Part shown: one piece after another, positions 4,439-58,800 of the stretch
Layout of the letters: each line of letters starts with the position of its first letter
How positions within the stretch are numbered: position 1 is the stretch's first letter
Virus record (IMG/VR): IMGVR_UViG_3300025102_000012
Location: 28,809-92,808 of that record
DNA from: a virus
DNA length: 64,000 bases
Reading direction: 5' to 3' (one strand)
Position numbers and translations under genes: made by a program
The notes under the pieces: generated by a model
Told to the model about the DNA's origin: nothing
The model's input: the letters and a program-made list of their open reading frames with translations, nothing else
The model's database searches: none

Positions 4439-4442
4439 TTAA

Positions 4443-4556
4443 GTGGTTTCAAAATATACAAAACATTTACAGATTCTAGAAAAAAGTAAGGAGGTTGTTG
4501 AGGAAAAGCCCGCTAAGAAAAAAAGGGCGACTAAACCTAAGACAACCAAAAAATAA
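4443..4556 (+). CDS. Lysine-rich mini-protein
   Basis: A 37-residue frame starts at GTG 4443 behind GGGGTGATTAA, the same ribosome-site context used by neighbouring genes. The second half is highly basic (EEKPAKKKRATKPKTTKK). It starts 4 bases after the tube gene stop and ends before a hairpin. It could be a small nucleic-acid or scaffold-binding peptide; no family is recognised. Confidence 0.5.
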   Translation: MVSKYTKHLQILEKSKEVVEEKPAKKKRATKPKTTKK

Positions 4557-4562
4557 TATTCC

Positions 4563-4589
4563 ACCAACACCGTTTGTTTGTTTGTTGGT
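4563..4589 (+). terminator. Hairpin between tube and chaperone genes
   Basis: ACCAACA at 4563-4569 pairs with TGTTGGT at 4583-4589 around a T/G-rich loop of repeated GTTT. It lies in the only sizeable gap of this operon. It could reduce read-through after the highly expressed tube gene or stabilise its message. There is no clear T-run after it, so the terminator role is uncertain. Confidence 0.35.
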
Positions 4590-4605
4590 TTAGAGGTGGA
4601 GAAAT

Positions 4606-4968
4606 ATGGATAAGAAAATAATACAGGATAAAAGTGCGCTATTTGCGCTAACTGAGCCTATGCTACATTATGTAAAAGTAGCGCCCGAACAAGAAGAATA
4701 CCTCAAGGTATGGGTAAAAGAACCCACATGGATTGAGGTAGATAGAGCCATGAATAACATGATGAAGATTGATGCTAAGAATCAAGATATTGAATTAGAC
4801 ATCAATGCTATGTTTAAATTCATGGTAGAAAATTTTATTGTTAAGACGGAACCAAGTCTTTCAGCAATAGAAGTATTAAGACTCACTCCCTATATAGGGA
4901 ATCAATTAAAAGAAATTCTTCCGAACCCCTTTACGGCATTTGAAGAGGACTCGGAAAAAAACGACTAG
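4606..4968 (+). CDS. Tail assembly chaperone, short form (gpG-like)
   Basis: This 120-residue acidic protein (EQEEYLKVWVKEPTWIEVDR, NPFTAFEEDSEKND) starts behind GAGGTGGAG. It lies between tail tube and tape measure genes, the position of lambda G and its analogues, which bind the tape measure protein and recruit tube subunits. Its 3' end carries a perfect -1 slippery heptamer, A AAA AAC at 4956-4962, two codons before its TAG. Slippage there continues into the frame read by 4968-5177, producing a 190-residue long form. Confidence 0.8.
   Translation: MDKKIIQDKSALFALTEPMLHYVKVAPEQEEYLKVWVKEPTWIEVDRAMNNMMKIDAKNQDIELDINAMFKFMVENFIVKTEPSLSAIEVLRLTPYIGNQLKEILPNPFTAFEEDSEKND
4956..4962 (+). promoter_or_regulatory. 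Programmed -1 ribosomal frameshift site (A AAA AAC)
   Basis: The zero frame reads GAA AAA AAC GAC TAG. The X XXY YYZ heptamer A AAA AAC is exactly in register, and the -1 frame continues CGA CTA GTG into the next open frame. About 24 bases downstream a stem forms: GAAGCAA(A)TC at 4987-4996 with GATTGCTTC at 5006-5014, a possible stimulator, although it is further away than usual. The arrangement is the one known for lambda G/GT tail chaperones. Confidence 0.8.
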
Positions 4969-8677: not shown

Positions 8678-11600
8678 TGGCGCTAAAACTATTTCAAAAG
8701 GGACAAAGTTCTAGCCTAACCAACTTTAACATTGATGTCCCTACTAATCCAAAAGCCACTACTGAAAGTGCTTCTTTATCGGGTAGAATATTTTCCGCTA
8801 TTTATCCCGATGATTCTACTTCAGATAATTTTGAAGAAATAATTAATGGTGCAGGTATTACTACACCATATTCTAACTTAACAACAACAAACGGATTTAG
8901 AATAAACTGTTATGATAGTACCTCTCAAGTAGGTATTCGTTTAAATTCTCTAAACATATCATCAGATTCTTTTGAATATTATGTATTAATTCATTCCGAT
9001 AATCATTTAAAGCATCACTTTGCTAAAATAACTGAAATAATAAAGAGCGATGTAACTGGTGATTCTTTTGATTTTACTCCTAAATTAGGAAATGAAATAC
9101 TAAAAGATACTAAATTTATGTTATTTAAATTCCCAAAAAATTCGACAGCAATAGCCGTAAGTGCAGGGTTATCTTTAGATTTACAAAATGAATTAATTAT
9201 ATCAAGACCACACTATTTTTTTAGATTAAGCACTGATAAAAAGGATGAATTAGACCACAATACTAAATATTTTATGAGAGTAAAAGACGGTTCATCTAGT
9301 CCTATTACATTAGATAATACAATTACTCTAAAGACTACTTTTTTAACAGCGCAGGATTATGATTTAGGACTAATAGATTATAGTAAATACACTCTTAAAG
9401 TTAAGATGGTAGACACTCTTAGGACACTAGATTTACAAGGAACTATTACTTTATCAGATGGTTCTATTTATAATATTGCTACTTCGGGTAGTCCCACTAT
9501 TACAAACTTAAATCCAACACTAGATACATCTCAAATATTTGTTGGTATGGCCATTAACCATGCAAGGTTTTCAGGAATACCTAAAATAGTTTCTATTGGA
9601 ACTAATGAGATAACACTATCTCAAAATGCTATTTCTACGGGAGTTAGCCCTATTCTATTTTTTAGTGGAAACGAAGGACAACAAAATAATACTCTTGATT
9701 ATACAGATTATAAAGATGCTTTTCCACATGCAAGAGCAGACGGTGATAACTTGTTATTACCTGTTTCTAATAACTTTACTTCAACTGGAGAAAGAAGATA
9801 TTTGCATTACGATTTCTCTCCGGAAAAATGTAATAAATTACCCAACGCTATGGATTCTATTATATACGAATCAGCAGGAAATAGAGGGGCTTTTGCTGAA
9901 GTAAAGGCAGTAGATTCATTTAGAATCCTTCCCAAGAAAATTGTAGAATTTAACAAACTAAAGGCTAGGCATATTTTACATAGAGGGACTTTATCAGATT
10001 TTAAAGAGTTTGATTGGGCTATTACAAATATATCTACTTTAACTATAACATTAGATACTAATAATGCTAATTTACATTTTGTGGCAGGTAATGAAATAAA
10101 AATTGGAAACTTAATTTGTTTGGTAGATTCAGTTACTACTGATACAATAGTTCTAGAATCTGCTTTTAGATTAGAAGAAGAAAGTACCTTTACTTCGGGA
10201 ACTCCGCCAATAACATCAACCGATAAAGTCTCTAGAAGGGCATATAATCATGCTAATAATACATTGATGACGGATTTAACTTTGGTAAGTGATAGAAGCG
10301 ATTCTTTATTTGTTACTTTTATAGATGTTAATTTTATAGAACACTACGCTACGGTAACAGCCGTTAATTCTAAACAAAAACTTTTGACTTTATCTCTAAA
10401 CAGTTCTGCTTATACTGCTAATCAAACTCTATTTATAGATGGGCAATATTTAATAGAATATCAAAAGTTTGATGGAGAAATAGAATCAATAGATTCTTAT
10501 CAACAAGATGGTCAAACTTTAATAGAATTAAAAGGTAGAAATAAATTTAATAAATTACTTTCACCTATAATAAACAAATCAACTCTATTTAGTGATGATA
10601 TATTATATTCTAGCGAAACCTTTTATTCAGAATTAGAAAGAATAAAAGATGGAGCCACTGATGCTTTTTTAACTGCAAGTTATGGTAGTGATTTCGTAAA
10701 TTTCACTGATAGTCTTGGTAATGGCATTTCTGTTACTACTTCTACTGGTGATAATCTTTTTATAAAAACAAAAGCAGGAAATATCAAATATGTTGGAAAA
10801 ATATTATCCGGCAGCAGCGGAGGCGGCGCTAAACAATTAGAAACACTAGCAAATACTCAAACTAGTATGGGTATTAATGGTGATGATACTATCGCAGTAT
10901 ATAAACAAAAGAAAAAGGAATATGTTTTCAATAAAGCGTTGGCTAGTAGTCATTTAGTTCCTTCTAGTACATCTCTATCAGGTTCTTCCAATAAAGGTGT
11001 TTTCTTTACAGGAGGAAGAAAATTAGTAGGTGGTAATGAAAGCACTAGATTAGTTGGTAGTTCATTCGATAATAATCCTAATGCGGTAGGTTATCACATT
11101 AGCAACATTAGAAATATGAAAAGCGACAACTTTTTTCAGTCTACATTAGGGAATGATGCGGATAGTGAAACTTATCAAAATTTTGATACAGTAAATACTC
11201 TTATGGATTTTACTGTTGTTAATGTTTCTAATAGCGGGGCTAATAAATTAGTGGAGATTGCTCCATATATACCTTTATCATTAGCCTCAATTAAACATAA
11301 TTACGCAAATACAAGAGACATTACTAATGCTACACAATTTAGTAGTCAAAATTTAGGAACAATAAGCGCTATTCAAGACACTTTTAAAATAGTAACTTTA
11401 GATTTTGGATTTTGTTCTACCAATGCTGACAAAAGAAGGCTTCATAATAAGCCATTATATGTTAGCACATTGGGACAAACAGACTATACTTTTGTAGGAT
11501 TTATTTTACAAGTAAATAGATACGGCACTACTGGTTCTTCTAAAACAATCATTTCTCTTGATAGGGGTGTTGTTGCTACTGTAGGACAGCAACTATCAAT

Positions 11601-20478: not shown

Positions 20479-21944
20479 TTATCTTCACCTCTCATTACTA
20501 ACTTAATATAAGTGCTTCTTCCTTCTCTTACTTCTTCAAACTTATGTTTAATGATATCATAATATCTGTATATTTGTGACCTTGATTTTTTTGCTTTCTT
20601 TCTAACATCGGTTAAGAACAGGCTTTTGTTTATATATCCATTTTCGTCTTTCTTTATTTTATCGTATGTTGCTAGGAATAGTGGTTCTAGTGAATTCTCG
20701 GCTATACTTTGCCTCTTGACCTTTAGGCTTTGCTCTAACCACATAACCAATGTCTTATAACATTGTTGCACAAGAAGGGATGCTTGATGCACATGAACAC
20801 CACTTACAATGAAGCGGTCTTTCTTAGAAGTAATGGAGGGAGCGGAAGCAACTGAACATAAAACGGACATCTTAATCATTATTTTCATTAATCTAGTTGT
20901 GAAATTAGAACAAATCTTAGCAACATCCGGTCTAGTATTTTGTAGTTCAATGTTCATTTTAGTATATTCTAACTTCAATGCTTGTCTAAAGTCCGGACTA
21001 TAAGTGATAGTCTTGAGTGGATTTTTACCTACCTCGTCATATCTCTCTCTAACTAAGTTGTATATGGCTACCAAAGAATCAGCGAACTTATCAACGGGTG
21101 CATTTACTTCTTCTATAGTTCCTGCTTTGTCAATCTGCTCTATTCTCATTTCATCTTGAATGTATTGTGGAACATCCCAAACATAAAGAAGCATCCTTTG
21201 TAGAACACCTTTTTCTGCCATAATAGTATTTAGATTATTAGGGGGATAAGTCATTGCTAATACTGACCTCTCACAATAACAATTCATTGTTTGACCATCC
21301 ATTGAGTCTAAGGCTTTTGAGATGACCCAAGATTCTCCGGCTAATGAATTCATTAAAGTATTCAAATAAACAATGCTTTGTTCTTTATGTTGAGATTGTT
21401 TAAATATTCCCGAATATTCAAATTCATCCCAATGGGCTAAACCATTTCCTTCAAGAATACCCGGTCTTCTTCTCCAATCCACCTCACCATCTTCATTTTC
21501 ATCTTTAACATATTTACCAATCAAGACTGAATCAGTATAATCGGTTACTGAAAATGTATTGAAAATTCTTTCCATAGGGAGATTATTTTCATTTCTGTAT
21601 GGTGGATGTTTGCCTATCGCATTTATTTTCTCAAATGTCTTGTTTGCTACTTTACCCACAAAGTTCCAAAGAGTAGATTTACCCGTTCCCGATGTTTGAA
21701 CCCAACAAAAATGTATTCTGCTATCTTCAATATTTCTGCCATTTGGAATCCTAATAAAATCTTTACAGATTTGTCCTAACATAACAAAGTAGGATATACT
21801 AGCCGGTATTGGATTTGAGTGTGATACTTCAAGTGCCGAGTTTTTAAATTCTCTAACTACATAAGGTAGGGCTTGGTTCAAAATCTTTGCGTCTTCTTCA
21901 AAGGAATCGTATTCCTCATTTTCTATATTTTCTTCTTCATTCAT
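20475..21944 (-). CDS. Replicative helicase-like P-loop ATPase (DUF3987-like)
   Basis: This 489-residue protein has a Walker A motif at about 83-92 (QTSGTGKSTL), a Walker B at about 169-175 (LAHWDEFEY) and further conserved-looking blocks (SVLAMTYPPNNLN as a sensor-like strand, EKGVLQRMLLYVW as an arginine-finger region). The C-terminal part (residues 400-489) is helical with a basic DNA-binding-like segment (KKAKKSRSQIYRYYDIIKHK), plausibly a winged helix. Such ATPases occur next to primases and probably unwind DNA at viral forks. Position between the XPF-like nuclease/primase and the exonuclease supports this. It is not a canonical MCM. Confidence 0.65.
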   Translation of the reverse strand: MNEEENIENEEYDSFEEDAKILNQALPYVVREFKNSALEVSHSNPIPASISYFVMLGQICKDFIRIPNGRNIEDSRIHFCWVQTSGTGKSTLWNFVGKVANKTFEKINAIGKHPPYRNENNLPMERIFNTFSVTDYTDSVLIGKYVKDENEDGEVDWRRRPGILEGNGLAHWDEFEYSGIFKQSQHKEQSIVYLNTLMNSLAGESWVISKALDSMDGQTMNCYCERSVLAMTYPPNNLNTIMAEKGVLQRMLLYVWDVPQYIQDEMRIEQIDKAGTIEEVNAPVDKFADSLVAIYNLVRERYDEVGKNPLKTITYSPDFRQALKLEYTKMNIELQNTRPDVAKICSNFTTRLMKIMIKMSVLCSVASAPSITSKKDRFIVSGVHVHQASLLVQQCYKTLVMWLEQSLKVKRQSIAENSLEPLFLATYDKIKKDENGYINKSLFLTDVRKKAKKSRSQIYRYYDIIKHKFEEVREGRSTYIKLVMRGEDK

Positions 21945-22630
21945 ATTTTCACCTTCTCTTCCGAGTTTAATGTGGAGAGTATTCTGTTGGCTAGGGCTTC
22001 TCCAATCCCGTCAATTACTTGGAGTTGATACTCCGAGCATTCTCCTATTTCCATAATAGAGCCAAATTCTTTTATTAGTGCTTTTGCTTTTTTAATTGAT
22101 ATTCCTTTAATACTGGTTAATAAATCTAATCTTAAATCATCTGTTGTTATTCTTTTAAACACTTGTGGGGATATTGTATTTCTTGTTATTGGTTTCATTT
22201 TGCTTACTGCTGTTATTATTAATGCTGCTTCTTCTTCATTACTTACCCAAATGGGTTTTATGTCTGTATCTAATATTATTCTTCCTAATGCTCCTAAAAA
22301 CTTATTATTTAGCATTACCTTTCTTGAAGAAATAGGCATTTTTGTCTTTGAATTAGCCAAGATATTTAAAATTGCTTCTTCTAAAGACCCATGTATAATG
22401 ACTACATTTGTTTTGTAGTGTCTATCCATATTATCTAATTGAGTCCAAAGCCTTTTTGACAAAACTGAACCTAAGAAATCTATAGTAGACTTTGCTTCAA
22501 AACAAACATCATCATATACATAATCACCTATTTCAATCCATTTCTTTTCATGGGGTATATTAAGAGCCTTAGCCTTCTTCATTACCAATTCAGCAAGATT
22601 TGACTTTTCTCTTGAATCAATTACTAGCAC
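21941..22630 (-). CDS. XPF/ERCC4-type structure-specific nuclease
   Basis: I chose GTG 22630 (229 residues), six bases after GGAGGT; a GTG at 22657 has no ribosome site. The N-terminal part holds the nuclease core: D5-S-R-E-K, G-D-Y at 35-37 and E45-A-K47, a variant of G-D-x(n)-E-R-K with Ala for Arg. Residues 165-225 contain two helix-hairpin-helix units (LLTSIKGISIKKAKALIKEF and LQVIDGIGEALANRIL). Archaeal XPF cuts branched DNA at forks or flaps and is stimulated by the sliding clamp. It overlaps the primase gene end by 14 bases. Confidence 0.82.
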   Translation of the reverse strand: MLVIDSREKSNLAELVMKKAKALNIPHEKKWIEIGDYVYDDVCFEAKSTIDFLGSVLSKRLWTQLDNMDRHYKTNVVIIHGSLEEAILNILANSKTKMPISSRKVMLNNKFLGALGRIILDTDIKPIWVSNEEEAALIITAVSKMKPITRNTISPQVFKRITTDDLRLDLLTSIKGISIKKAKALIKEFGSIMEIGECSEYQLQVIDGIGEALANRILSTLNSEEKVKI

Positions 22631-23657
22631 TGTGATACCTCCAACATTTACCAACACAAAATCCTTCGCTAATTAACTTGTCACAATGAGGGGTATTATA
22701 ATTATTGAATACTGTAAACTTTGCATGTTTTTTTGTGGTATGTTTATCCCAATCTAACCAAACTGTATCTGAATCTCCAAAAACTCTTTCTAACTCTTCT
22801 ATTACCAAATCTAATGTTTTTTGTTTTTCTTCAATAATTGTTAAATCACGATAGCCCGAAATCAAATCCCTATACCAAGATACTAGATATGCTCTTGCTA
22901 TGTGGGAAGGATTCTCCGTCATGACAGCATTGTGTAAACAAGGCAACATGGGTAATTTTCCTACCGTATCGGGAACAGAAACTTCCCCTTCAATCTCTTG
23001 AATAGGGGGTGCTTCGGGAAATACCACTAGTTTTTTTCCCTGTTTTTTGAAGGGTATATGGCGAGGTTCTTTTGCTAATAAAACCAATTGACTGAGAGGC
23101 AGTTTTAAGTCTTCTTTTAGTAAAGGAATGCAATAATATGGCATTTTATTTTCGTCGGATGATGACATATTTACTGTGTTAGGAACTCTTCGCAATCTAG
23201 TAGTTTGACCTACTCTATCATCTAATGAATTGTTTTCACCTACTTTAGAAACTAAGTGAGTTTTTATCTCTCTAAACTTTATCTGTATGTTTCTCATATT
23301 ATGAGTTTCTTCACCAAATAAGAACAAATGGAAGCCTCTTCCTGAAAAGAAAAGAGTATGTTCATACTCTTTAGAATATACTAATTCCATTACTATTTTT
23401 AAATCATTCCATGCTTTTTCTAAGTCATCTTCGTGAGCATCAAAGTCTAAAAAAATTCTATCTAATATTACAGTAGAATCTATCTTTGCTTTTTCAGTAA
23501 ATTGTCTAAAATCATATACAGTGGTATAGACATTCATCCTATTGTTTTGAGCATTAACAAAACCAATGTACTCATTTCTATTGAATACTATTCTTCTCTT
23601 CATCTGTGGAGCGTTCTTTATGTGACTCCCCGCCCACACTTCCCTCGGAAACTTCAT
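22617..23657 (-). CDS. Archaeal-type DNA primase, PriS-like with possible PriL-like tail
   Basis: I chose ATG 23657 behind GGAGGT (346 residues). The PriS catalytic motif is FLDFDAHE with metal-binding D71 and D73, and the nucleotide-binding motif S-G-R-G-F-H follows at 105-110 (FFSGRGFHLFLFG). The RLRRVPNTVN segment fits the substrate-binding Arg region. The last 110 residues contain four Cys (LPCLHNA, then HCDKLISEGFCVGKCWRY) spaced like the iron-sulfur domain of PriL, so the gene may fuse both subunits, as in some archaeal plasmid and virus primases. It makes the primers for the B-family polymerase. Confidence 0.8.
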   Translation of the reverse strand: MKFPREVWAGSHIKNAPQMKRRIVFNRNEYIGFVNAQNNRMNVYTTVYDFRQFTEKAKIDSTVILDRIFLDFDAHEDDLEKAWNDLKIVMELVYSKEYEHTLFFSGRGFHLFLFGEETHNMRNIQIKFREIKTHLVSKVGENNSLDDRVGQTTRLRRVPNTVNMSSSDENKMPYYCIPLLKEDLKLPLSQLVLLAKEPRHIPFKKQGKKLVVFPEAPPIQEIEGEVSVPDTVGKLPMLPCLHNAVMTENPSHIARAYLVSWYRDLISGYRDLTIIEEKQKTLDLVIEELERVFGDSDTVWLDWDKHTTKKHAKFTVFNNYNTPHCDKLISEGFCVGKCWRYHSASN

Positions 23658-41052: not shown

Positions 41053-41209
41053 TATTCTTCACCATACCGCCGTCTAATTCATTTTTTTTATTCAATTCTC
41101 TCTCAAACATTTCTAGAGCAGAATGAATAACCGGAGTTCCATTACCTTCGGCTATTATCTTTTTCATTCTCTTAATCGCCATCAAGTAATCGTGTTTGAA
41201 TACAGTCAC
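41036..41209 (-). CDS. Small helical protein
   Basis: A 57-residue frame starts at GTG 41209, overlapping the JAMM protein stop (GTGA), and overlaps the GroES-like gene by 17 bases. It is helical and basic in its first half (KHDYLMAIKRMKKIIAEGNG). No function is suggested. Confidence 0.5.
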   Translation of the reverse strand: MTVFKHDYLMAIKRMKKIIAEGNGTPVIHSALEMFERELNKKNELDGGMVKNNESEE

Positions 41210-41856
41210 TCTTCTTCACTCTCCGTCTCTTGACCCCAATATTGCATTCTTTCTAATTGACGATTACGATAGATTGCTAATTGTTTTGGTTTGGTTTGTT
41301 GCCACCAACCATAGTGTTCAACCCCACTACCTCCCAAAACAAATGCTTCTGTCATTAGAGGCTTCCATTGAGATACTGTTCTAATATCTACACCACTAAA
41401 ATAGGCGGCACCAAATGGATGAGTATGAGTCCAACATCTAATAGGAAGTTTCATTCCTACAGGAGGCTTCATTCCAAATTCTACATAGCCCGGAGAACCA
41501 GTAGTAACATAACAGTCATTATTTCCATCAATCACTACTTGCACTTCAAGACCCGGTAATATCTCGGTAGAAGCATGCCAAATAGCACCAAAGAATAGTT
41601 CGCTCTTATAGGATGTCATATCTACTGTGTGTCTATTATTCCAATCAACACCAATGCTTTTCAATTCTAACATTGCTTCTTCGACCCAAACATTTAGAAT
41701 ATGTTGTTCAGCCCGTTCTCTAGCCTTTTCTAAAGCCTCAAATTCCTTTTCTGCTTCAGCAATCTGTAAATCTTCAAGGTACTTATCATACCCATCATCA
41801 TCATGATAGCCTCTTTTTTCTTCTTCTCTTAAATTCCAATCACTTGTCTTACTCAT
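41206..41856 (-). CDS. JAMM/MPN+ metalloprotease (deubiquitinase-like)
   Basis: This 216-residue protein contains the JAMM zinc site: a Glu upstream (E86 in SELFFGAIWH), then H144-T-H146-P...S154-x-x-D157 (WTHTHPFGAAYFSGVD). The N-terminal 60 residues are a charged helix (EKEFEALEKARERAEQHILN). JAMM enzymes cleave isopeptide or peptide bonds after the diglycine of ubiquitin-like proteins. An E1-like gene is immediately upstream and a ubiquitin-like gene ending in G-G-Q-Q lies 4.5 kb further upstream in the same block, so a dedicated modification system is likely. Confidence 0.78.
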   Translation of the reverse strand: MSKTSDWNLREEEKRGYHDDDGYDKYLEDLQIAEAEKEFEALEKARERAEQHILNVWVEEAMLELKSIGVDWNNRHTVDMTSYKSELFFGAIWHASTEILPGLEVQVVIDGNNDCYVTTGSPGYVEFGMKPPVGMKLPIRCWTHTHPFGAAYFSGVDIRTVSQWKPLMTEAFVLGGSGVEHYGWWQQTKPKQLAIYRNRQLERMQYWGQETESEEE

Positions 41857-41867
41857 TTCTTTTCACC

Positions 41868-42431
41868 TCACATATTAATTACTTCATAATCCTTAACTGT
41901 CTCATTATCTTGAAACCATCTTTGAATCCATTGTGCGCCCAATCCTGCAATTGCCACTTGCATAAAATGAACTCCTTCTGTTGAACCATCCCATGTTTCT
42001 CCTTGACAACTAAACGAACCATCCTTTCCTGCTAAAAGCGTATCATACATCTTAGGGTCTGCTTTATGCGACACAAGTGCGGCATTCCTACCTTGCGCTC
42101 TCAAATCAAGCCATTTAATATTTGTGTTGTATAAAGTTCTTCTAACTGATAAATTATCTACACAACAAATAACCAAGTCATATCCTTTCATTTGTTTTTC
42201 TGTTAGAATAGGATATTGAGAACCACCCATTACACTACGGTATTTATTACCCATAACCGATGCTTTGTTTTCTCCTACATCATCAGCACTAAAGTTTTGA
42301 TATGGTAAATTTTTATTTTCTACCTTATCAGGGTCTGCTACTGATATGTTATACAATTCTACTTTATCTAAAAGCGGTAACAAGAAACTCCCGATACCAC
42401 CTGCTCCAATTATTAATATTTTTCTTTTCAT
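41868..42431 (-). CDS. E1-like ThiF/MoeB family adenylyltransferase
   Basis: I chose ATG 42431 behind GGGAGGAA (187 residues). The Rossmann motif is G-A-G-G-I-G-S at 9-15. The acidic pair of the second strand is in VADPDKVENKNLPYQNF (D33, D35, N41), K56 follows, and D92-N-x-x-x-R97 closes the nucleotide site. C142 (SFSCQGE) is a candidate catalytic or crossover residue. It is shorter than full ThiF (about 250), lacking much of the C-terminal zinc part. It would adenylate the C-terminus of the ubiquitin-like protein. It lies next to the JAMM gene. Confidence 0.8.
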   Translation of the reverse strand: MKRKILIIGAGGIGSFLLPLLDKVELYNISVADPDKVENKNLPYQNFSADDVGENKASVMGNKYRSVMGGSQYPILTEKQMKGYDLVICCVDNLSVRRTLYNTNIKWLDLRAQGRNAALVSHKADPKMYDTLLAGKDGSFSCQGETWDGSTEGVHFMQVAIAGLGAQWIQRWFQDNETVKDYEVINM

Positions 42432-42433
42432 TT

Positions 42434-42763
42434 TTATTCCTCCCAATATGGGTCTAGTTTGTCATTAGGTAGCATATCCCAACTACCTTTCATAGAATGT
42501 TCAAACGATACATCCTCTACAAAATCAGGATTCTTAAGCAATAACAAGGGCTTGTGCCAATTATCATCCGCTTGCGCTTGTTCTATTACTTTGTTCATCT
42601 GTTCTGCTTTGTCATCGGGTAATTCTACCCAATAAACCATAGCGTGTCTTTGTCTATTTAGTCTCGCTCTCATGGTTATTGTCATTGGAGCATATCCTAC
42701 ACCTTCACATTCCATAAAAGATTCTAAACCGTGAGCATCTGCTATTCCACAATATGTTTTCAT
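42434..42763 (-). CDS. Unknown protein next to E1-like gene
   Basis: This 109-residue protein (MKTYCGIADAHGLESFMECE, then YWVELPDDKAEQMNKVIEQA) ends 3 bases before the E1-like start. It starts with a beta strand followed by C5 and C19. I do not see the H-P-N or active-site Cys pattern of an E2. Its position next to the E1-like gene makes it a candidate partner or substrate. Confidence 0.55.
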   Translation of the reverse strand: MKTYCGIADAHGLESFMECEGVGYAPMTITMRARLNRQRHAMVYWVELPDDKAEQMNKVIEQAQADDNWHKPLLLLKNPDFVEDVSFEHSMKGSWDMLPNDKLDPYWEE

Positions 42764-51897: not shown

Positions 51898-52341
51898 TCA
51901 CAACGAATCAAAGTTTCCATCCCAAGAACCCTCTTTGAATAGTTTTGCCAAATGTGTTCTTGTTCTCTTTACTATTGCCTTAGCATAGTCTTCGGCATTC
52001 TCATATTGCTTGCCACCTCTAGCAACTAAAACCTTAGCCATTAGAAAATTGCTATTGTAATATGCTAGTGATGATTCTTCTACTAAGGAACAAGCCTTAT
52101 CTATAGAAATTCTAACTGTAGTTGGCACAGAACTCTTTTTGCCCTTACGGAAAGGTGTTCCATCCCTGCCTCTTAGGAGAGCCTTCAATGCACCCTTAGC
52201 CGCATCTCTCTCATCGGGACTATTATCTCCAATTTGAAGATTCAACCTTAGCACCTGCTTTAGTCCATCTTCTAATTTCGTGTCTGCTTCTAAATATTCT
52301 TCAACCTCTACTTTGAGGCTATTCCATTCTATGTTATCCAT
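51898..52341 (-). CDS. Paralogue A of the W-D-G protein family
   Basis: I chose ATG 52341 behind GGAG (147 residues). It shares length, layout and its C-terminal motif (Y-A-x4-K-x6-L-x-K-x2-K-E-G-S-W-D-G) with the two plus-strand proteins at 53,663 and 56,724. Other shared spots are R-K-G-K-x-S in the middle and R-G-G-K before the last helix. It is helical and basic. It is expressed from the opposite side of the candidate origin region. Unknown role; DNA binding is plausible from its basic charge. Confidence 0.65.
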   Translation of the reverse strand: MDNIEWNSLKVEVEEYLEADTKLEDGLKQVLRLNLQIGDNSPDERDAAKGALKALLRGRDGTPFRKGKKSSVPTTVRISIDKACSLVEESSLAYYNSNFLMAKVLVARGGKQYENAEDYAKAIVKRTRTHLAKLFKEGSWDGNFDSL

Positions 52342-53140
52342 GTTAATCTCCAACAAATTATTACTTTATTTGGCGTATATAAGCGACCCTAATGTTTTAC
52401 TTAAAGCATTAAATCACTATTACTCTAAATCAATTTTATGCGGTCTTTTACATTCATCTCATGGATGATACATCCCATCATTCGTCTCAAAGTGAGACAA
52501 ATGCCTTATGTTACACAAGTCACTCTTACAGAAGGACATCTCGTAAATTCAATTCGTCTCATCTCATCTCATCCATCTCACCATATATCTCTCTCATAGG
52601 GACTCATAACTACCCTCTAAGAAAAGGACTTATGGGGTAGTAGTATTATGATGATGATGATGATATGAGATATGAGATATATGAGATAGATATAGTGATA
52701 ATATATATTATGTTACATATCTCTACCTCTCAGCCCCAACTATGTCGCATCTCATTCAATTTTTTCGGTGAGACGAATCAAACATTCTATATTATATTAT
52801 TATAGATATACAAGATATAATATTCTTATTATAATACATATAAGACCAATTGAAAGAGAGCATTAATTGAATATGCTATACATATAACGATAAGTTTTGA
52901 TAAAAAATAGGGGTTGTTTAAGTATTGCTTAACCAAAACCCTTTGTTAAGTGATGTTATTACCATATGGTTGCACTTTGGTTTAACCCGGTGCGATTTTT
53001 TGAATAGGTTCGCTTCCTATTGGGGGTTTGGAGGGGTGGGACTTCTCAGGAGTTATCATCGCTTAACCCTAAGCGGGGTAATTTTTCATTCCCGTATGTA
53101 CATTCTATTTTGAACTCGTTTCGATACTGCCCCATGAATA
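52342..53140. other. AT-rich non-coding divergent region, candidate origin/control region
   Basis: No convincing gene is found here. The motif ATTCGTCTCA occurs at about 52489 and 52552, and its reverse complement TGAGACGAAT at about 52789; the first is part of the dyad GTCTCA-AAG-TGAGAC. TCATCTCA and ATGAGATA variants are repeated around 52455-52700, including a GATGAT run and alternating A/T sequence (TGATAATATATATTATG). Plus and minus blocks diverge here. Repeated short motifs, dyads and AT-rich stretches are the usual parts of a viral origin or a two-way promoter. No gene-coding signal was found in either strand. Confidence 0.5.
52928..52987 (+). repeat. Double-hairpin CATATG element 1 (divergent)
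   Basis: The core ACCATATGGT stands at 52961-52970. To its right GGTT...CTTTG...AACC forms the usual half; to its left CTTAAC...GTTAAG forms a hairpin but lacks the CAAAG loop. It is the first and least regular of ten copies. Confidence 0.65.
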
Positions 53141-53386
53141 TTAACCAAATATATCATCAAATATTGTTCTCTTTCTCCCTAGTGGTTTTATGCTACTAGG
53201 TCTATCATGACAAGTAACGCATACATCTGTAAAATCAATTAAGGGATTTGCTGTGTTTCTAAATTTTTCGGTATATACTCGAATATGAGGTTGCCGACCT
53301 GCATAACCGCCTTTGAATTTATCGCATTCATAGCAACTCTTTGTTGGCATTTCTTTTTCCCAATGAATTTCATTTTCTCTAGTCAT
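53141..53386 (-). CDS. Zinc-ribbon protein
   Basis: This 81-residue protein has C-x2-C at 18-21 (SCYECDKFKGG) and C-x2-C near 56-59 (DVCVTCHDRPS), one zinc ribbon. The C-terminus is basic with an acidic-aromatic end (KRTIFDDIFG). It is the first gene to be transcribed leftwards from the region between elements 1 and 2. Possible early regulator. Confidence 0.6.
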   Translation of the reverse strand: MTRENEIHWEKEMPTKSCYECDKFKGGYAGRQPHIRVYTEKFRNTANPLIDFTDVCVTCHDRPSSIKPLGRKRTIFDDIFG

Positions 53387-53533
53387 TCTTCATACCTCTT
53401 AATCAAAATAATGTTATAATTTGGATTTATCACATTTAGTCCATTATACAAGGCGTTGCGATAATATAATTTTCCTCTATAATTTAATATGTCATATTTA
53501 TGCATGGTAAACCCATAACTCTACTATATTTAA

Positions 53534-53583
53534 GGTAATGACCACAAAGTTACCATTACCATATGGTAGTGCTTTGGGCTACC
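53534..53583 (+). repeat. Double-hairpin CATATG element 2
   Basis: Core ACCATATGGT at 53558-53567. Left half GGTAA...ACAAAG...TTACC, right half GGTAG-TGCTTTGGG-CTACC. Outer bases TTAAGGTA (53530-53537) and TACCTTAA (53580-53587) also pair, so the whole unit is a long palindrome. It stands about 80 bases before the start of paralogue B. Confidence 0.75.
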
Positions 53584-53662
53584 TTAATTAATATCAAATA
53601 GAGTTACTTGGGTGCTTCAATGGGGAGCAAACACATCAAATCAACCATAAGGAGTTGAAACC

Positions 53663-54187
53663 ATGAAAGAAACAAATTGGAATATAAATGCAAACAAAGT
53701 AAAGACTTGGGCGGAAACCCAAAACGAAAAAGACCCTCAAGTAATGGCAATTATGCTATCACTTGGGCTTGGTGAAGCGGCAGGTACTGACGAAATGAGA
53801 AGTACATATTGGACGGCTATTCGTTCAATAGGTTCTACTATGGAAGGTTTTCCAGCCGCTCGCAAAGGACAGTTATCATCACTTACAGACAAACAACAGA
53901 TTGTTTTGGATGCTGTGGAAACAACAGTCGTGAATGCTTTTGCGGCAATCCCTACTGAATACCACGATGTCATACTTGCTGTCATTGTACCAAACGGTAG
54001 GACTGGTGGCGTATTTGAAGATTACAACGCATTCACTAGCGACATGAAAAGAAAGGCTCACAACTATATGTTGAAGTCAATCAAAGAAAACCGTTGGGAC
54101 GGAACAAAGGCAAACAAAGCCGGAGTACCAACAATAACCCCATCGGTTCCAAAATCAAAGGTCGAAGAGGTGACTGAAGAGGTTTGA
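53663..54187 (+). CDS. Paralogue B of the W-D-G protein family
   Basis: This 174-residue protein is preceded by TAAGGAGTTGA and is closely related to paralogue C at 56,724 (shared M-R-S-T-Y-W-T-A-I-R-S-I-G-S-T, F-P-x-A-R-K-G-Q, W-D-G-T). Predicted helices alternate with two strands (VILAVIVPNGRTGGVFEDYN). The C-terminal tail is Pro/Val/Glu-rich and differs between copies. Its leader has a hairpin similar to that of C. It is the first gene of the right-hand array. Unknown function; candidates are a DNA-binding or regulatory protein. Confidence 0.7.
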   Translation: MKETNWNINANKVKTWAETQNEKDPQVMAIMLSLGLGEAAGTDEMRSTYWTAIRSIGSTMEGFPAARKGQLSSLTDKQQIVLDAVETTVVNAFAAIPTEYHDVILAVIVPNGRTGGVFEDYNAFTSDMKRKAHNYMLKSIKENRWDGTKANKAGVPTITPSVPKSKVEEVTEEV

Positions 54188-54198
54188 TGTTGTTGTTT

Positions 54199-54230
54199 CC
54201 CCATTGTTGCGCCTTTGCGCTTCATTGGGG
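54199..54230 (+). terminator. Hairpin after paralogue B
   Basis: CCCCA at 54199-54203 pairs with TGGGG at 54226-54230, with an inner GCGC-CTTT-GCGC stem. It begins 12 bases after the stop of paralogue B and runs into element 3. A terminator or transcript-end stabiliser is likely. Confidence 0.5.
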
Positions 54231-54274
54231 TTCGCCAAAGACAAACCATATGGTTGTATGCTTTGCATACGACC
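54229..54274 (+). repeat. Double-hairpin CATATG element 3
   Basis: Core ACCATATGGT at 54245-54254. Left half GGTT-CGCCAAAGACA-AACC, right half GGTTGTATG-CTTTG-CATACGACC. It is followed by CCTAATATAT and then the next gene. Confidence 0.75.
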
Positions 54275-54314
54275 CTAATATATCAATTAAGAATATTTTG
54301 TTTGGTGATAAAAT

Positions 54315-55025
54315 ATGGATATGACATACGAGCGCACAATGAAAATTAAATATACAGAAAACGAATTAACAGATACAGAAATGAGAAAACTAGCCCACGA
54401 CTTACAACAAGAAGGGCTTGATATGGTAGATTGGGGAAATGAGGAAGTATTACAATACGGATTCAAACCAATGACCACAACTAAAACTCGCCATGTAATA
54501 AAAAACAGTAGGGGCAAAGTAATTTACTCAAACACATACCGACACAATACCGCAGAAGTTTACAATCAAATAAAAGAGTTCTACAAAGTAACAAGAGAGG
54601 AAGTGGAACAAGTTACCACAATCGAAGGTTGGGTAGAGCCGAACGGAACTAGGTTGAGCCTTGTTGATGAAAGTGACAAATATAGAATAGTAACGGATTA
54701 TGTTGGTAATTATTATTATGAGGAAGAAGAAGTACAAATGCTAGTCAAAATAAATAATAGCAGTTATCAAGGTTTTACATTAGAAATAATTACTACTTGG
54801 AAGACTGATAAAATTCAAAGAGCAGACCTTATCAAACAACGATTAGTAGAACTTCCACTTGAAGAAGTTGGTAAAATACAAACTATCTTAGAATCTTGTT
54901 TGAGTGAGTATAGAGTAGTACCCGAACATCCGGAGATTGATTGTCACTTTGATGCTAAGACTGAAACAACTAGTGAATGTTCACCCGATATAATCAAGTT
55001 AGTTAGAGAGGCGAGAAATCAATGA
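54315..55025 (+). CDS. Unknown 236-residue protein of the element array
   Basis: The start follows TTTGGTGATAAAAT. The first half (NELTDTEMRKLAHDLQQEGL, KTRHVIKNSRGKVIYSNTYR) and second half (FTLEIITTWKTDKIQRADLI, LPLEEVGKIQTILESCLSEY) are alpha/beta with Glu-rich stretches. An acidic run E-E-E-E stands in the middle. It is the largest protein of the array. No family is recognised. Confidence 0.6.
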   Translation: MDMTYERTMKIKYTENELTDTEMRKLAHDLQQEGLDMVDWGNEEVLQYGFKPMTTTKTRHVIKNSRGKVIYSNTYRHNTAEVYNQIKEFYKVTREEVEQVTTIEGWVEPNGTRLSLVDESDKYRIVTDYVGNYYYEEEEVQMLVKINNSSYQGFTLEIITTWKTDKIQRADLIKQRLVELPLEEVGKIQTILESCLSEYRVVPEHPEIDCHFDAKTETTSECSPDIIKLVREARNQ

Positions 55026-55168
55026 AGACATACAAGATAATAAGATTTAGACAAGGTAGAGAAACAATAACAATACAAACGGGATTGACACTTGAAGAAG
55101 CACAAGCCCATTGTCAAGATGATGAAACAAGAGGAGATGGTTGGTTTGACGGTTACACTGAAGAATAA
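55022..55168 (+). CDS. Small GLTLEEAQAHC-type viral protein
   Basis: This 48-residue protein overlaps the previous stop (ATGA). It contains G-L-T-L-E-E-A-Q-A-H-C-Q-D and G-W-F-D-G-Y, a pattern I know from many small marine phage proteins of unknown function. Sequence and overlap make it a credible gene. Confidence 0.65.
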   Translation: MKTYKIIRFRQGRETITIQTGLTLEEAQAHCQDDETRGDGWFDGYTEE

Positions 55169-55271
55169 ACTCATTAACATTGTATCACTTGAATGTGCTA
55201 GAACTGACCACAGACATGATTTAAAGCACTGTAAGATTTGTATGAAGGAGAGGAGGAAAAATGGCTCATAA
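55137..55271 (+). CDS. Possible zinc mini-protein overlapping the previous gene
   Basis: A 44-residue frame from ATG 55137 (one base after GAGGAG) contains H-R-H-D-L-K-H-C-K-I-C, a C2H2-like zinc site. It overlaps the previous gene by 32 bases. Plausible but unproven. Confidence 0.4.
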   Translation: MVGLTVTLKNKLINIVSLECARTDHRHDLKHCKICMKERRKNGS

Positions 55272-55323
55272 ACCCCAAACCAGCATCAATTAAGTTTGAT
55301 GCCCTGTAAGTCCTATATGGCAA

Positions 55324-55370
55324 GGTTATGCAAAGCATAACCATATGGTAATGTAACTTTGAGGACTACC
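55324..55370 (+). repeat. Double-hairpin CATATG element 4
   Basis: Core ACCATATGGT at 55340-55349. Left half is a perfect hairpin GGTTATG-CAAAG-CATAACC. Right half GGTAATGTAACTTTGAGGACTACC closes with GGTA/TACC. It stands 29 bases before the next start codon. Confidence 0.78.
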
Positions 55371-55398
55371 CCATATACTATCTAGAAATTGGTTTGTC

Positions 55399-55587
55399 AT
55401 GCAGAAATGTAGAGGAATTGCAGGGAAAGGTTGTGGAAAAACAGCATCTTACAGATTGCCATATGCGACAGTTTGTTTTGAATGTTTTGAGATTAATAGA
55501 AAAGATTGGGAATCTAGAGATGAATTAGAAAAAGCCTCAATTCGTCGAGAATGGCGAGTTCAAGGAATTCCTAATCCTTTCGATTAG
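55399..55587 (+). CDS. Zinc-binding small protein
   Basis: This 62-residue protein has C4, C12 in a KCRGIAGKGCGKTA segment and C-x2-C (VCFECFEINRKDW), forming one zinc fold, followed by a charged helix (SRDELEKASIRREWRVQGIP). It fills the unit between elements 4 and 5 alone. Likely nucleic-acid or protein binding. Confidence 0.65.
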   Translation: MQKCRGIAGKGCGKTASYRLPYATVCFECFEINRKDWESRDELEKASIRREWRVQGIPNPFD

Positions 55588-55592
55588 GTTTT

Positions 55593-55610
55593 CCGGCCTC
55601 TTTTGAGGCC
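55593..55610 (+). terminator. Hairpin after the zinc gene
   Basis: GGCCTC-TTTT-GAGGCC is a perfect 6-bp stem with a T4 loop a few bases after the stop codon, flanked by GGTT and AACC. It is a good intrinsic terminator-like structure directly before element 5. Confidence 0.55.
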
Positions 55611-55612
55611 AC

Positions 55613-55659
55613 TAACCACAAAGTTATGACCATATGGTTGGGAGGCTTTGTTCTCAACC
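55613..55659 (+). repeat. Double-hairpin CATATG element 5
   Basis: Core ACCATATGGT at 55629-55638. Left half TAAC-CACAAA-GTTA, right half GGTTG...CTTTG...CAACC. It is followed by CCTAAATAGG and stands 28 bases before the next start. Confidence 0.72.
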
Positions 55660-55686
55660 CTAAATAGGGTTGTTAGTTCTTTGGGC

Positions 55687-55902
55687 ATGTCAAACGATAC
55701 CACACTAGTAGGATATGTAAGAATGACCAACGCAGGGGGACAAATCAAAGTTTCAATCAATGTTGATGCTTTCAAAGATTGTCAAACCTATACAACAAGT
55801 GACGGACAAGTATATGTCCCACTGATTATATCAGCAAATGCTCTAAAAGCAGTACAAGATGGAGAAAGAGTAGTAACAACAATCTTTCAGCATGTAGATT
55901 AA
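55687..55902 (+). CDS. Small beta protein of the element array
   Basis: I chose ATG 55687 (71 residues) behind TTTGGG; the longer frame begins inside the leader. Sequence TTLVGYVRMTNAGGQIKVSI and VYVPLIISANALKAVQDGER shows a small beta-rich fold with a helix. It is the only clear gene between elements 5 and 6. No family is recognised. Confidence 0.55.
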   Translation: MSNDTTLVGYVRMTNAGGQIKVSINVDAFKDCQTYTTSDGQVYVPLIISANALKAVQDGERVVTTIFQHVD

Positions 55903-56100
55903 TTCCAATGGTTATTAGTGGCCATAACACTATTGAGAAACGAAGGCGAAAGTCAAAAGACCAATATATCAGTCGGAAGGATATGCACGACAGGTTGCAC
56001 AGTGAAGAATACTAGTTGTACTTCATTCACTCCCCTAGAGTCAAGTATCAGCGCTTTAGCGGCTTTTGAATTAGTAGCCCAAGTTTCTCATGAGTATTGG

Positions 56101-56146
56101 GGTAATGCAAAGCATTACCATATGGTTGCTTCTTTGGTAATAAACC
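56101..56146 (+). repeat. Double-hairpin CATATG element 6
   Basis: Core ACCATATGGT at 56117-56126. Left half is a perfect hairpin GGTAAT-GCAAAGC-ATTACC. Right half GGTTGCTTCTTTGGTAATAAACC closes with GGTT/AACC. On its right lies a minus-strand gene, so here it would face two gene ends. Confidence 0.75.
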
Positions 56147-56189
56147 CCGCAGGGAAAATGGCCGAAACCATCTTTTTTGTCGGGATATC

Positions 56190-56579
56190 TCAATAATCTG
56201 CTCTTGGATATCCGTATTGGCCGTAAGTGCAATTATTACACATACAATCGGTATTACAAATATCAAACCCATATCTGCTCCGCCTATATTTTTGAAGGCA
56301 TATGTAGCAATCGGGATTACTTTCATATTCATCACATTCACAATATAACAAGACTTCTAAATTGCTATATGCGTCTTCTATCGGCTTTTTTGCTTCTTTT
56401 GGGAGATTTTTATAGAATGGTTCTTCCATTAAGAGTTTGATAGCGTCTAACTCTTTTAGAGTTGTATCTTTTCTAGCCTCTATCTTCTCTCGTATCTCTT
56501 CATCCGTCAATCCTTCATCTACCCATTGTTCGTATTCGTCTTCGCTGACTCTAATATCATCACCAAAGAATATTGGCAA
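56190..56579 (-). CDS. Cys-rich protein on the minus strand inside the array
   Basis: This 129-residue protein has an acidic helical N-terminus (DEYEQWVDEGLTDEEIREKI) and a C-terminal part with nine Cys (CECDEYESNPDCYICLQKYR, then CNTDCMCNNC), able to bind two zinc ions. It is the only leftward gene between 53.6 and 64 kb and sits exactly between elements 6 and 7, as if one unit had been inverted. Confidence 0.65.
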   Translation of the reverse strand: MPIFFGDDIRVSEDEYEQWVDEGLTDEEIREKIEARKDTTLKELDAIKLLMEEPFYKNLPKEAKKPIEDAYSNLEVLLYCECDEYESNPDCYICLQKYRRSRYGFDICNTDCMCNNCTYGQYGYPRADY

Positions 56580-56596
56580 TATTCACCTATACTTAG

Positions 56597-56654
56597 GGTA
56601 GACAAAGCCTACCATATGGTTGTAATCGCTTTGCGAGCGTAGTGCATTACAACC
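56597..56654 (+). repeat. Double-hairpin CATATG element 7
   Basis: Core ACCATATGGT at 56611-56620. Left half GGTAG-ACAAAGC-CTACC, right half GGTTGTAAT...CTTTG...ATTACAACC with a perfect 9-bp stem and an enlarged loop. It is followed by CTAATACTTA and stands 70 bases before paralogue C. Confidence 0.78.
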
Positions 56655-56723
56655 CTAATACTTACAGGAAGTACAGGGTTGCTTCGGAGGGATTGAAGCA
56701 TTAACTTTTAAGGAGTTGATAAT

Positions 56724-57233
56724 ATGAAGGAAGAAAATTGGATAACAAACATAAACAAAGTAAATTTGTGGCTTGAAGAAGAAGATAGAGGAGCAAGCGG
56801 CCAAGCAATTGGTTTGTCTATTACTCTAGGAAATGACTGTGGTAGTGACGATATGCGTTCTACTTATTGGACGGCTATCCGTTCTATAGGTAGTACATAT
56901 ACCGACTTCCCTTTAGCAAGGAAAGGCCAAGCATCTACATTACCAGTAGAAATACAAGTGGCGGTAGATGGTGTGACTTCTGCGGTACAATCTGCTTTTG
57001 CGGATATTACTAATGGTGAGTTAATTACTACTGTAATCTATGCAGGGCTTGGTCGAAGAGGCGGAAAATACTCTTCAATGAATGAATTTGCTGACTATAT
57101 GGCTAAACAAGCAGGTCAAAACCTGTTGAAAGGATATAAAGAAGGTCGTTGGGACGGAACCATGAATGGCGATATCCCGACAATGGCTGCTCCTCCTGTA
57201 AAGGAGAAGAAGGAGGCCAATAAAGAAGATTGA
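56724..57233 (+). CDS. Paralogue C of the W-D-G protein family
   Basis: This 169-residue protein shares its whole layout with paralogue B, including the identical block M-R-S-T-Y-W-T-A-I-R-S-I-G-S-T and G-R-W-D-G-T. The ribosome site TTAAGGAGTTGA is almost identical to that of B. The C-terminal tail (PVKEKKEANKED) differs in sequence but is also charged. B and C look like a duplicated unit of the array. Function unknown. Confidence 0.7.
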   Translation: MKEENWITNINKVNLWLEEEDRGASGQAIGLSITLGNDCGSDDMRSTYWTAIRSIGSTYTDFPLARKGQASTLPVEIQVAVDGVTSAVQSAFADITNGELITTVIYAGLGRRGGKYSSMNEFADYMAKQAGQNLLKGYKEGRWDGTMNGDIPTMAAPPVKEKKEANKED

Positions 57234-57265
57234 TGCGGCATTCCCTCCGTTGCACCTCTTTAGGG

Positions 57266-57310
57266 GGCAATGGCAAAGCCATTACCATATGGTAGTAACT
57301 TTGTGGTACC
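57266..57310 (+). repeat. Double-hairpin CATATG element 8
   Basis: Core ACCATATGGT at 57284-57293. Left half AATGG-CAAAG-CCATT inside GGC...ACC, right half GGTAGTAACTTTGTGGTACC closes with GGTA/TACC. It stands 30 bases before the next start. Confidence 0.76.
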
Positions 57311-57339
57311 ACACTAATAGGGTTAGATTTTATTTGGGC

Positions 57340-57690
57340 ATGTTTACGAAGAGTATTGGTGATGAAGAAGACGGAGTAGTAGTTAATGTAGGATTATGTG
57401 CTGGAAGGCATGATATTGAGGGAATCACTGATTATATTTTTTCAGAACCTATTGAAAATCCTAATGACTTTAAAACTCTAAGACAAATCGCAAATGAAAG
57501 ATTAGAGGAAATGTGGAATGATGGAAATTGTATCAACATTTATGTTACTGGATTAAGCCAAGCATTAACTATCGTTTTATCAGAAGTTTTTGGTTTATAC
57601 GAATTAACAGAATATGATATTCTGGTTCAGGTCTATCATTGGGATAGAGAAACAGAAACCTACAAGGGTCATACCATCGTAGGTAGTTAA
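57340..57690 (+). CDS. Unknown 116-residue protein of the element array
   Basis: I chose ATG 57340 behind TTTGGGC; the longer frame would run through element 8. The C-terminal half (NIYVTGLSQALTIVLSEVFG, then YELTEYDILVQVYHWDRETE) has a Rossmann-like strand-helix-strand pattern. It resembles small phage alpha/beta proteins of unknown function. It is the only gene between elements 8 and 9. Confidence 0.6.
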   Translation: MFTKSIGDEEDGVVVNVGLCAGRHDIEGITDYIFSEPIENPNDFKTLRQIANERLEEMWNDGNCINIYVTGLSQALTIVLSEVFGLYELTEYDILVQVYHWDRETETYKGHTIVGS

Positions 57691-57700
57691 AACCCTTCGG

Positions 57701-57755
57701 GGCAACCTCAAAGATATTACCATATGGTGTGGTCTTTGACCGTTGGTAATACACC
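57701..57755 (+). repeat. Double-hairpin CATATG element 9
   Basis: Core ACCATATGGT at 57719-57728. The right half GGTGTGGTCTTTGACC...ACACC closes with GGTGT/ACACC and CTTTG; the left half keeps CAAAG but pairs only weakly. CCC-TTCG-GGG, just upstream at 57693-57702, is a small terminator-like hairpin. Confidence 0.68.
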
Positions 57756-57784
57756 CTATATAGGAGGTATTTGAGTCAATAGTC

Positions 57785-58267
57785 ATGGATAATGATATTA
57801 CCATTAATAAGGAGGCAAAAACTAACAGTTCTATAACTCTCCATGTATGTAGAACTGGGAAGAAAGAGCAATACTACACCCTATACGAGGAAGGGATAGT
57901 AGCAAGACCATATAGGTGCAATTACTTTTGTAACTATGTACAAAACTTAGCACACTCAAAAGTTGATGCTATGGAAAAGGCACAAAAGAGGCAACAAGAA
58001 TTAGTTGATAGTGGCTTTTGGTTCACTGTTGAAGTAGAATATCATGATTCTCCACGAATCATATATGCTAGAATGGAGGCCTTTGGTGCTGAATTCAAGA
58101 CTTCTAAATCCGGTACTACAATGTGGGCTAACGCTACACCCGAATTTTGGGACAATTGGAAAGCAAATAAACAATTAATCAAGAATGCTGGATTTTGGGT
58201 CAAGAGAACTAATACTGGTCAATGGCTTGTTTTCGTCAAGAGGGATGCAGACTTCGATTATAGTTGA
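57785..58267 (+). CDS. Unknown 160-residue protein of the element array
   Basis: This protein has a Cys-containing start (LHVCRTGKKEQYYTLYEEGI, then NYFCNYVQNLAHSKVDAMEK) and a mixed C-terminal part (FWDNWKANKQLIKNAGFWVK, then TNTGQWLVFVKRDADFDYS). The segment N-L-A-H-S-K-V-D-A-M-E-K-A is typical of small marine phage proteins of unknown function. It occupies the last unit, between elements 9 and 10. Confidence 0.6.
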   Translation: MDNDITINKEAKTNSSITLHVCRTGKKEQYYTLYEEGIVARPYRCNYFCNYVQNLAHSKVDAMEKAQKRQQELVDSGFWFTVEVEYHDSPRIIYARMEAFGAEFKTSKSGTTMWANATPEFWDNWKANKQLIKNAGFWVKRTNTGQWLVFVKRDADFDYS

Positions 58268-58313
58268 GGCCTAATAAAAAACACATGATGTTTTCCCCAA
58301 TTGGGGTTTTTAC

Positions 58314-58340
58314 GGGCAAAGCCCAACCATATGGCTTTGT
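58314..58340 (+). repeat. Double-hairpin CATATG element 10 (half-degenerate)
   Basis: ACCATATGGC at 58326-58335 replaces the usual core, followed directly by TTTG. Left half GGGC-AAA-GCCC is a hairpin. A palindrome CCCCAATTGGGG stands just upstream. No gene follows for 460 bases, so this looks like the end of the array. Confidence 0.6.
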
Positions 58341-58800
58341 ATTCTAAAATTTTTATTTTTGATTAGATTAAAACAAACAGGCTTTTAATGTAGCGTTTTG
58401 CCTATTTTCAAAGAACTAATATTGCTTTAATTAATACCGATGAAGTTATATCTTGCATAACATTACGCTTTCTTGATACGGATGCCTACTAATGAAGAGA
58501 ACTACAAATACTCTTTTAATTGTATTAGTTTTTTAATATAACTTAATTAGTACGCATATGTAACAACGGTAAATGGAGGTAAAGCGTACTTTTAAATGAA
58601 TTACTGGTTAAATTCTAATTAACTAATTCAGAATTATATAGGTTAAATAAAACAATTAAAAACTATATTATTATTATAAATCAATACATTATAATTAAAT
58701 GATTATCTTTTTATCCTGTTTATACATACGAATATAAAAAAATAAAAACGCAAGTGCCAAATAAATTCCACCACATTTTTTGAGAAAAAGAGATGATAAC
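58341..58800 (+). other. AT-rich non-coding region, probable promoter of the late block
   Basis: No gene of more than 40 residues is convincing here. The stretch is very AT-rich with several TATA-like boxes, for example near 58,730 (GAATATAAAAAAATAAAAA), and it stands directly upstream of a long same-strand gene block. It is the only large gap between the array and the late block, so I expect the late promoter here. Nothing else is seen. Confidence 0.5.

Follow-up and report, generated by a model that had tools for sequence, protein, structure and literature searches.

A symmetric two-hairpin element as the putative boundary of exchangeable gene cassettes in magrovirus-type genomes

The stretch of virus DNA analysed here (the window) comprises 64,000 bases, positions 28809-92808 of the 92,808-base IMG/VR virus record IMGVR_UViG_3300025102_000012, and contains a series of short genes separated by copies of a palindromic element with two hairpins. 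Our results suggest that these genes form an array of mobile, mostly single-gene cassettes that are exchanged by recombination at the core of the element, with the hairpins recognised as folded DNA; we put the probability of this reading at roughly 60%. The element has the layout GGT-n-CAAAG-n-ACC-ATAT-GGT-n-CTTTG-n-ACC, in which 2-12 bases separate CAAAG from the core. It consists of two half-sites, each reading GGT-n-CTTTG-n-ACC outward from the core, which abut at ACC-ATAT-GGT. Comparison of related viruses strongly supports the exchange of cassettes at the core, whereas a dedicated system behind it, with its enzyme, is an inference.

Magroviruses are uncultured viruses that are widespread in the surface ocean. 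The window encodes a family B polymerase, an RFC-like AAA protein, TFB, an ATP-dependent ligase, a chaperonin, an SU10-type capsid protein, a portal protein and a terminase, and the closest named polymerases are those of haloarchaeal tailed viruses, at ~25% identity. Judged by this gene set and these polymerases, the window virus belongs with the magroviruses, viruses of the Poseidoniales (ocean archaea). In magroviruses the replication and structural modules are transcribed in opposite directions and an integrase is lacking, and the layout of the window agrees with this (PMC12999244). The array lies where the replication genes, which run leftward, meet the structural genes, which run rightward. 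Pattern scans of viral contigs for the full element yielded at least 755 elements, at least 658 of them distinct, at 178 loci; these are metagenomic contigs with simple gene calling, and related sequences are counted more than once.

Exchange of cassettes between related viruses

The site of exchange is apparent from cassettes that have different neighbours in different viruses. At 88 such cassette ends, identity was 0.82 directly before the core and 1.00 within the 10-bp core, and fell to 0.38 directly after it, where the random level is 0.39. Since identity drops across the core, each cassette appears to own a half-site at each end, with exchange at ACCATATGGT. This is further supported by the half-sites themselves. 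When a homologous cassette had another neighbour, the similarity of its near half-site was 0.774, versus 0.546 for the far half-site and 0.49 for random pairs; the near half-site is thus retained by the cassette and the far one goes with the neighbour, and the switch occurs at the core. Alignments also ended at elements disproportionately (28% vs 11%).

Cassettes were frequently inverted. Relative to the backbone, 86 of the 461 array orthologue pairs (many of them not independent) had the opposite orientation, compared with only 2 of 1296 backbone pairs, and when the dominant cassette family was left out 27 of 204 array pairs from 10 families were still inverted. The clearest inversion was found between two loci, L025 and L165, where positions 4158-4891 of the former match 10766-11499 of the latter directly, whereas the backbone and the array pieces on either side match in reverse; the final base of the core is where the match of the inverted cassette stops. 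Another pair of loci (L104 and L183) shares a cassette that is 92% identical, with neighbours that differ at both ends and a switch at the core.

Gain or loss of one unit was counted 15 times and replacement 22 times, as raw counts that include some trivial or related cases; examples are the pairs L103/L111, L039/L102 and L162/L177. One cassette was 88% identical across viruses whose backbone proteins share 62%. Gain, loss, replacement and inversion of units among related viruses, with breakpoints at the core, support the best-fitting of the options in the original prediction, namely that the elements are recombination sites around single-gene cassettes. Chimeric assembly should be an unlikely source of the switches, because assemblers usually work with words longer than the core that the sequences share. 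Insertion showed no clear trend in polarity from the boundary among 12 related pairs. Very short units, with 24-50 bp between two cores, occur at several loci (L014 at 5279/5308, L015 at 1906/1956, L170, and L091 near a boundary). Some of these form a hairpin without CTTTG; possibly, they are gene-less cassettes.

Structure of the element and its position relative to genes

The same element occurs more than 650 times in magrovirus-type contigs. In contrast, bacterial and archaeal genomes totalling 257 billion bases contained only 32 matching stretches, mostly isolated, and the element therefore seems to be a property of these viruses. A contig in a GTDB bacterial genome (NZTP01000027.1, from an 'Altibacter sp.' bin) carries an array of five elements, and is probably a misbinned magrovirus contig. 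A scan of the window against Rfam at gathering thresholds gave no match, and comparison of the array DNA with named phages gave none either. Within the open-licence literature covered, one magrovirus survey (PMC10160649) is silent on repeats, palindromes and cassettes.

That selection maintains the hairpin shape, with compensating changes in the stems, had been proposed from the copies in the window, and it is borne out by the 658-element set. When arms were exchanged between half-sites of equal length (paired-arm shuffling), 158 of 732 half-sites had at least three pairs beyond GGT/ACC, versus 27.8 after shuffling (~6x). Such stems were present both in half-sites beside gene starts (0.24 vs 0.05) and in those beside gene ends (0.17 vs 0.03). 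The loops are complementary, as had been noticed, but this follows automatically from the palindromic nature of the whole element. A single long cruciform, comparable to the fold of attC, was rejected: covariation across the halves was absent, and pairing of one half with the other at the core-adjacent position was 0.327 against 0.378 expected.

Elements are strongly confined to the space between genes, with 10 of 755 inside family-supported genes where 299 would be expected. Neighbouring genes occur around them in all four combinations of orientation (190, 167, 137 and 111 elements), and 230 of 376 inter-element intervals contain one predicted gene. The start codon follows shortly after the element, as originally described, at a median of 55 bp past the core. 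Just beyond the outer ACC, TATA-like tetramers are most frequent at positions -27 to -24 relative to the start codon, and a spacing of 24-27 bases is that expected of leaderless archaeal promoters. Hence, most cassettes appear to be transcribed from a promoter of their own, and the predicted transcript would start downstream of the element.

The array in the window and its boundaries

Ten cores had been claimed for the window, and each was found in its place (52961, 53558, 54245, 55340, 55629, 56117, 56611, 57284, 57719 and 58326). A search with at most one mismatch gave these 10 matches versus 1.9 expected, and 10 were reached in none of 100 shuffles. They are not all ordinary copies, however: the core at 52961 has a right half only and that at 58326 a left half only, and these two are therefore array boundaries. 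The nine intervals hold one gene each, as predicted, except for a small operon at 54.3-55.2 kb, and two of the genes are reversed (at 53.1 and 56.2 kb).

The left boundary (52961..52987) consists of the core and the right half-site (GGTTGCACTTTGGTTTAACC), with backbone on its left. It is followed by a reversed gene of 81 amino acids without known function (cassette 1; 53141..53386, reverse strand), element 2 with two half-sites (53534..53583) and, on the forward strand, a 174-amino-acid gene with an all-alpha prediction (cassette 2; 53663..54187), which belongs to the dominant cassette family, termed family 0. Element 3, again with two half-sites (54229..54274), precedes the two overlapping genes of cassette 3 (236 and 48 amino acids; 54315..55168, forward strand), and element 4 (55324..55370), with the left stem GGTTATG/CATAACC, precedes the 62-amino-acid gene of cassette 4 (55399..55587, forward). 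Element 5 (55619..55659) has a good right stem and a weak left one, and cassette 5 is a forward gene whose ATG start was set by inspection (55687..55902). Element 6 (56101..56146), with the left stem GGTAATG/CATTACC, is followed by the reversed 129-amino-acid gene of cassette 6 (56190..56579, reverse strand), and element 7 (56597..56654), with the right stem GGTTGTAAT/ATTACAACC, by a family 0 paralogue of 169 amino acids (cassette 7; 56724..57233, forward). The remaining units are element 8 (57269..57310; left stem AATGG/CCATT), the forward gene of cassette 8 with an ATG start set by inspection (57340..57690), element 9 (57709..57755) and the 160-amino-acid forward gene of cassette 9 (57785..58267). 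The right boundary (58305..58339) comprises a left half-site and the core, ACCATATGGC-TTTG, without a right half. Stems in the window are good at the left (L) or right (R) half-sites 53558-L, 54245-R, 55340-L, 55629-R, 56117-L and 56611-R, but poor at 55340-R, 55629-L and 56117-R.

Boundaries with an inward half only are common. The outward half was absent from the first core in 47 of 65 arrays and from the last core in 31 of 43, whereas both halves were present at 326 of 416 internal cores. One boundary type recurs in many viruses, with an A/T-rich tract followed by ACAAAGCCATATGGTTG; the copy in the window is the reverse complement of 58326-58366, and its AT-rich flank (TATTCTAAAATTTTTATTTTT...; 58340..58366) is conserved and lies beside many arrays. 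The boundary and the first cassette are in some viruses set apart by a short leader (about 25-220 bp). A search with the boundary for empty array sites gave no clear one, and one locus (L243) may be a decayed empty site. As markers for relatives that lack the element, TFB found 11 loci, mostly fragments, and the pyrimidine-dimer glycosylase reached unrelated phages, with 0 elements in 745 kb. Records with a family 0 gene either contain elements or are cut at that gene.

Several other features were observed around the array. Directly to its left, 52500-52750 consists of low-complexity repeats of the GATGAT/ATATGAGAT type, and a family 0 paralogue with a TTG start as called lies just outside the array (51898..52356, reverse strand). 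To its right, beside the conserved boundary site, ~450 bases (58340-58780) are poor in open reading frames and could be an origin, a late promoter or a leader. A ThiF-like gene adjoins a short gene, maybe its partner, at 41209-42446, and the record also has an HMGL-like gene and a pyrimidine dimer glycosylase.

Mechanism, alternative explanations and known systems

In the proposed mechanism, each cassette would come with a promoter and, at either end, a hairpin half-site, and the half-sites of neighbours would abut to form the palindromic element. Arrays are bounded on both sides by a site that has the inward half only. Recombination between any two cores would excise, insert or invert cassettes and, because the core is symmetric, would be free of orientation. 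The hairpins would be recognised as folded DNA, either by an unrecognised recombinase of viral or host origin, or by a structure-specific nuclease (e.g. the conserved ERCC4-like one) whose cut is followed by joining at the core. We propose tentatively, and with more doubt than confidence, that magroviruses possess a dedicated exchange system based on a new kind of site, with two outward hairpin half-sites joined at a palindromic core, in which symmetric recombination of folded DNA is carried out by an enzyme family not yet recognised as recombinase.

An XPF/ERCC4-like nuclease with a helix-hairpin-helix, a candidate structure-specific nuclease, is encoded in the window (21944..22657, reverse strand) and 23 of 24 records with elements encode such a nuclease. 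This is no proof of a role, because the nuclease probably belongs to the core gene set of these viruses, and as the exchange enzyme it is only a candidate. Family 0 comprises 207 members of ~170 amino acids in 119 loci, 140 of them in arrays, with conserved RRGxxSxLP and GxWDG motifs and an all-alpha model; no relatives were found in Pfam, PHROGs or the Protein Data Bank (PDB). As a recombinase it was rejected: it has no conserved catalytic R/H/Y set, the model is all-alpha, and no PDB structure matched.

Several results weigh against cassette exchange by a dedicated system. Tyrosine recombinases (PF00589) were found in none of 41 records, which may be fragments, with a control of 14/14; serine recombinases (PF00239) were found in none of 29 and Hjc in none of 24. 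The evidence for exchange is comparative, and neither a recombination product such as a circular cassette nor a mixed population was observed; many of the array pairs are interdependent, and under a stricter count, which required the cassettes on both sides to be conserved, no other inversion in place was seen. Moreover, the hairpins of the window are modest as single-stranded DNA (about -8 to -13 kcal/mol), and in some of its elements a good stem is missing or the halves pair with each other in an alternative fold.

The main alternative is passive shuffling, in which general homologous or microhomology recombination uses the element as a shared boundary that is kept for another reason such as regulation, similar to the promoter/stem-loop (PeSL) elements of T4-type phages. 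This is unlikely, yet deserves serious attention: the records searched have no dedicated recombinase, the virus codes for its own polymerase, ligase and nucleases, and a TATA box adjoins the start-adjacent sides of the element. However, 10 bp of shared identity plus CAAAG/CTTTG at variable spacing is little for homologous recombination to act on, inversion of single cassettes leaves both cores intact, and stems are kept in half-sites beside gene ends, where there is no promoter. It is improbable that the units resemble miniature inverted-repeat transposable elements, with half-sites as their ends, that insert at ATAT with duplication and yield elements where insertions abut. The half-sites do travel with the cassette rather than with the element, and arrays do end with inward halves only; yet the two ends of a cassette are as unlike as random halves of the same locus (0.545 vs 0.538), transposition alone would not predict inversion in place, and no transposase is among the 25 of 43 own-genome Pfam families considered.

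The original prediction had also offered a promoter or operator, and here a dyadic site bound by the regulator of one viral regulon seems quite improbable. The TATA-like tetramers just outside the start-adjacent sides do speak for promoters, and related haloviruses have intergenic promoter repeats (PMC8707807). Yet the 111 elements between two gene ends are equally complete (60% vs 59-66%), the 2-12 bp gap and the covarying stems do not suit a regulator site, and the inversions and core breakpoints would be left without explanation. Least probable by far is the further suggestion that the element acts as RNA, with paired and possibly kissing hairpins at transcript ends. Stem covariation would fit this, as would the finding that, in each half, G.T mismatches outnumber A.C mismatches on the strand with CTTTG (59:13 vs 39:22 after shuffling). 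This excess lies on opposite strands for the two halves, and a single RNA is therefore no explanation. The element is also alike at the 5' and 3' ends of genes and, because in most cassettes the TATA box stands between it and the start codon, it would precede the transcript and is probably absent from the mRNA.

If dedicated cassette exchange is correct, the system would be the natural equivalent of a loxPsym array. The cassette array would account for the constant change in the small accessory genes of magroviruses, and the element is a direct handle for finding those genes across metagenomes. Any enzyme acting on it would probably belong to a type that has so far had no link with recombination, and the symmetric site might serve as a new tool in genome engineering.

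Compared to known systems, the array resembles in its working both an integron cassette array and a natural version of a loxPsym array, and is a member of neither. In T4-type phages, a hairpin plus promoter between small genes of a variable region has reportedly been linked to modular shuffling. These PeSL elements (Arbiol 2010 and Comeau 2014, as cited in PMC4503421) likewise combine a promoter and a stem-loop at gene boundaries, as do the TATA peak and stems of our element; they differ from its symmetric two-hairpin palindrome with an invariant core and archaeal-type promoter, and from the inversion of single cassettes with breakpoints at the core. The repeats of halovirus HF2 (PMC8707807) are also intergenic and promoter-carrying, in tailed archaeal viruses related to magroviruses, but their positions are conserved, they have no two-hairpin core, and shuffling is unreported there.

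Integron arrays with attC/attI sites and IntI, known from phages (PMC9892861) and archaea (PMC9668308), share mostly single-gene cassettes, structured sites, a distinct boundary site, and gain and loss of units. In contrast to integrons, an IntI-type tyrosine integrase occurs in 0 of 41 magrovirus-type records, and the RYYYAAC...GTTRRRY of attC occurs in 0 of 658 elements in either arrangement. Furthermore, the site splits here at its centre, leaving half at each cassette end, instead of travelling whole with one side, and the cassettes lie in either orientation with their own TATA box. There is also a likeness to loxPsym/SCRaMbLE (PMC4691749, PMC10850332) and shufflons, where symmetric sites between genes permit deletion, duplication and inversion; as in invertible DNA and loxPsym, segments appear to have been inverted between sites with breakpoints in the core. 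Yet loxPsym is synthetic and dependent on Cre, shufflons need a tyrosine recombinase, and PF00589 (0/41) and PF00239 (0/29) are absent from the records here, where a host enzyme or an unrecognised family might act instead. Moreover, neither loxPsym nor the shufflons have half-sites with hairpins that vary in length.

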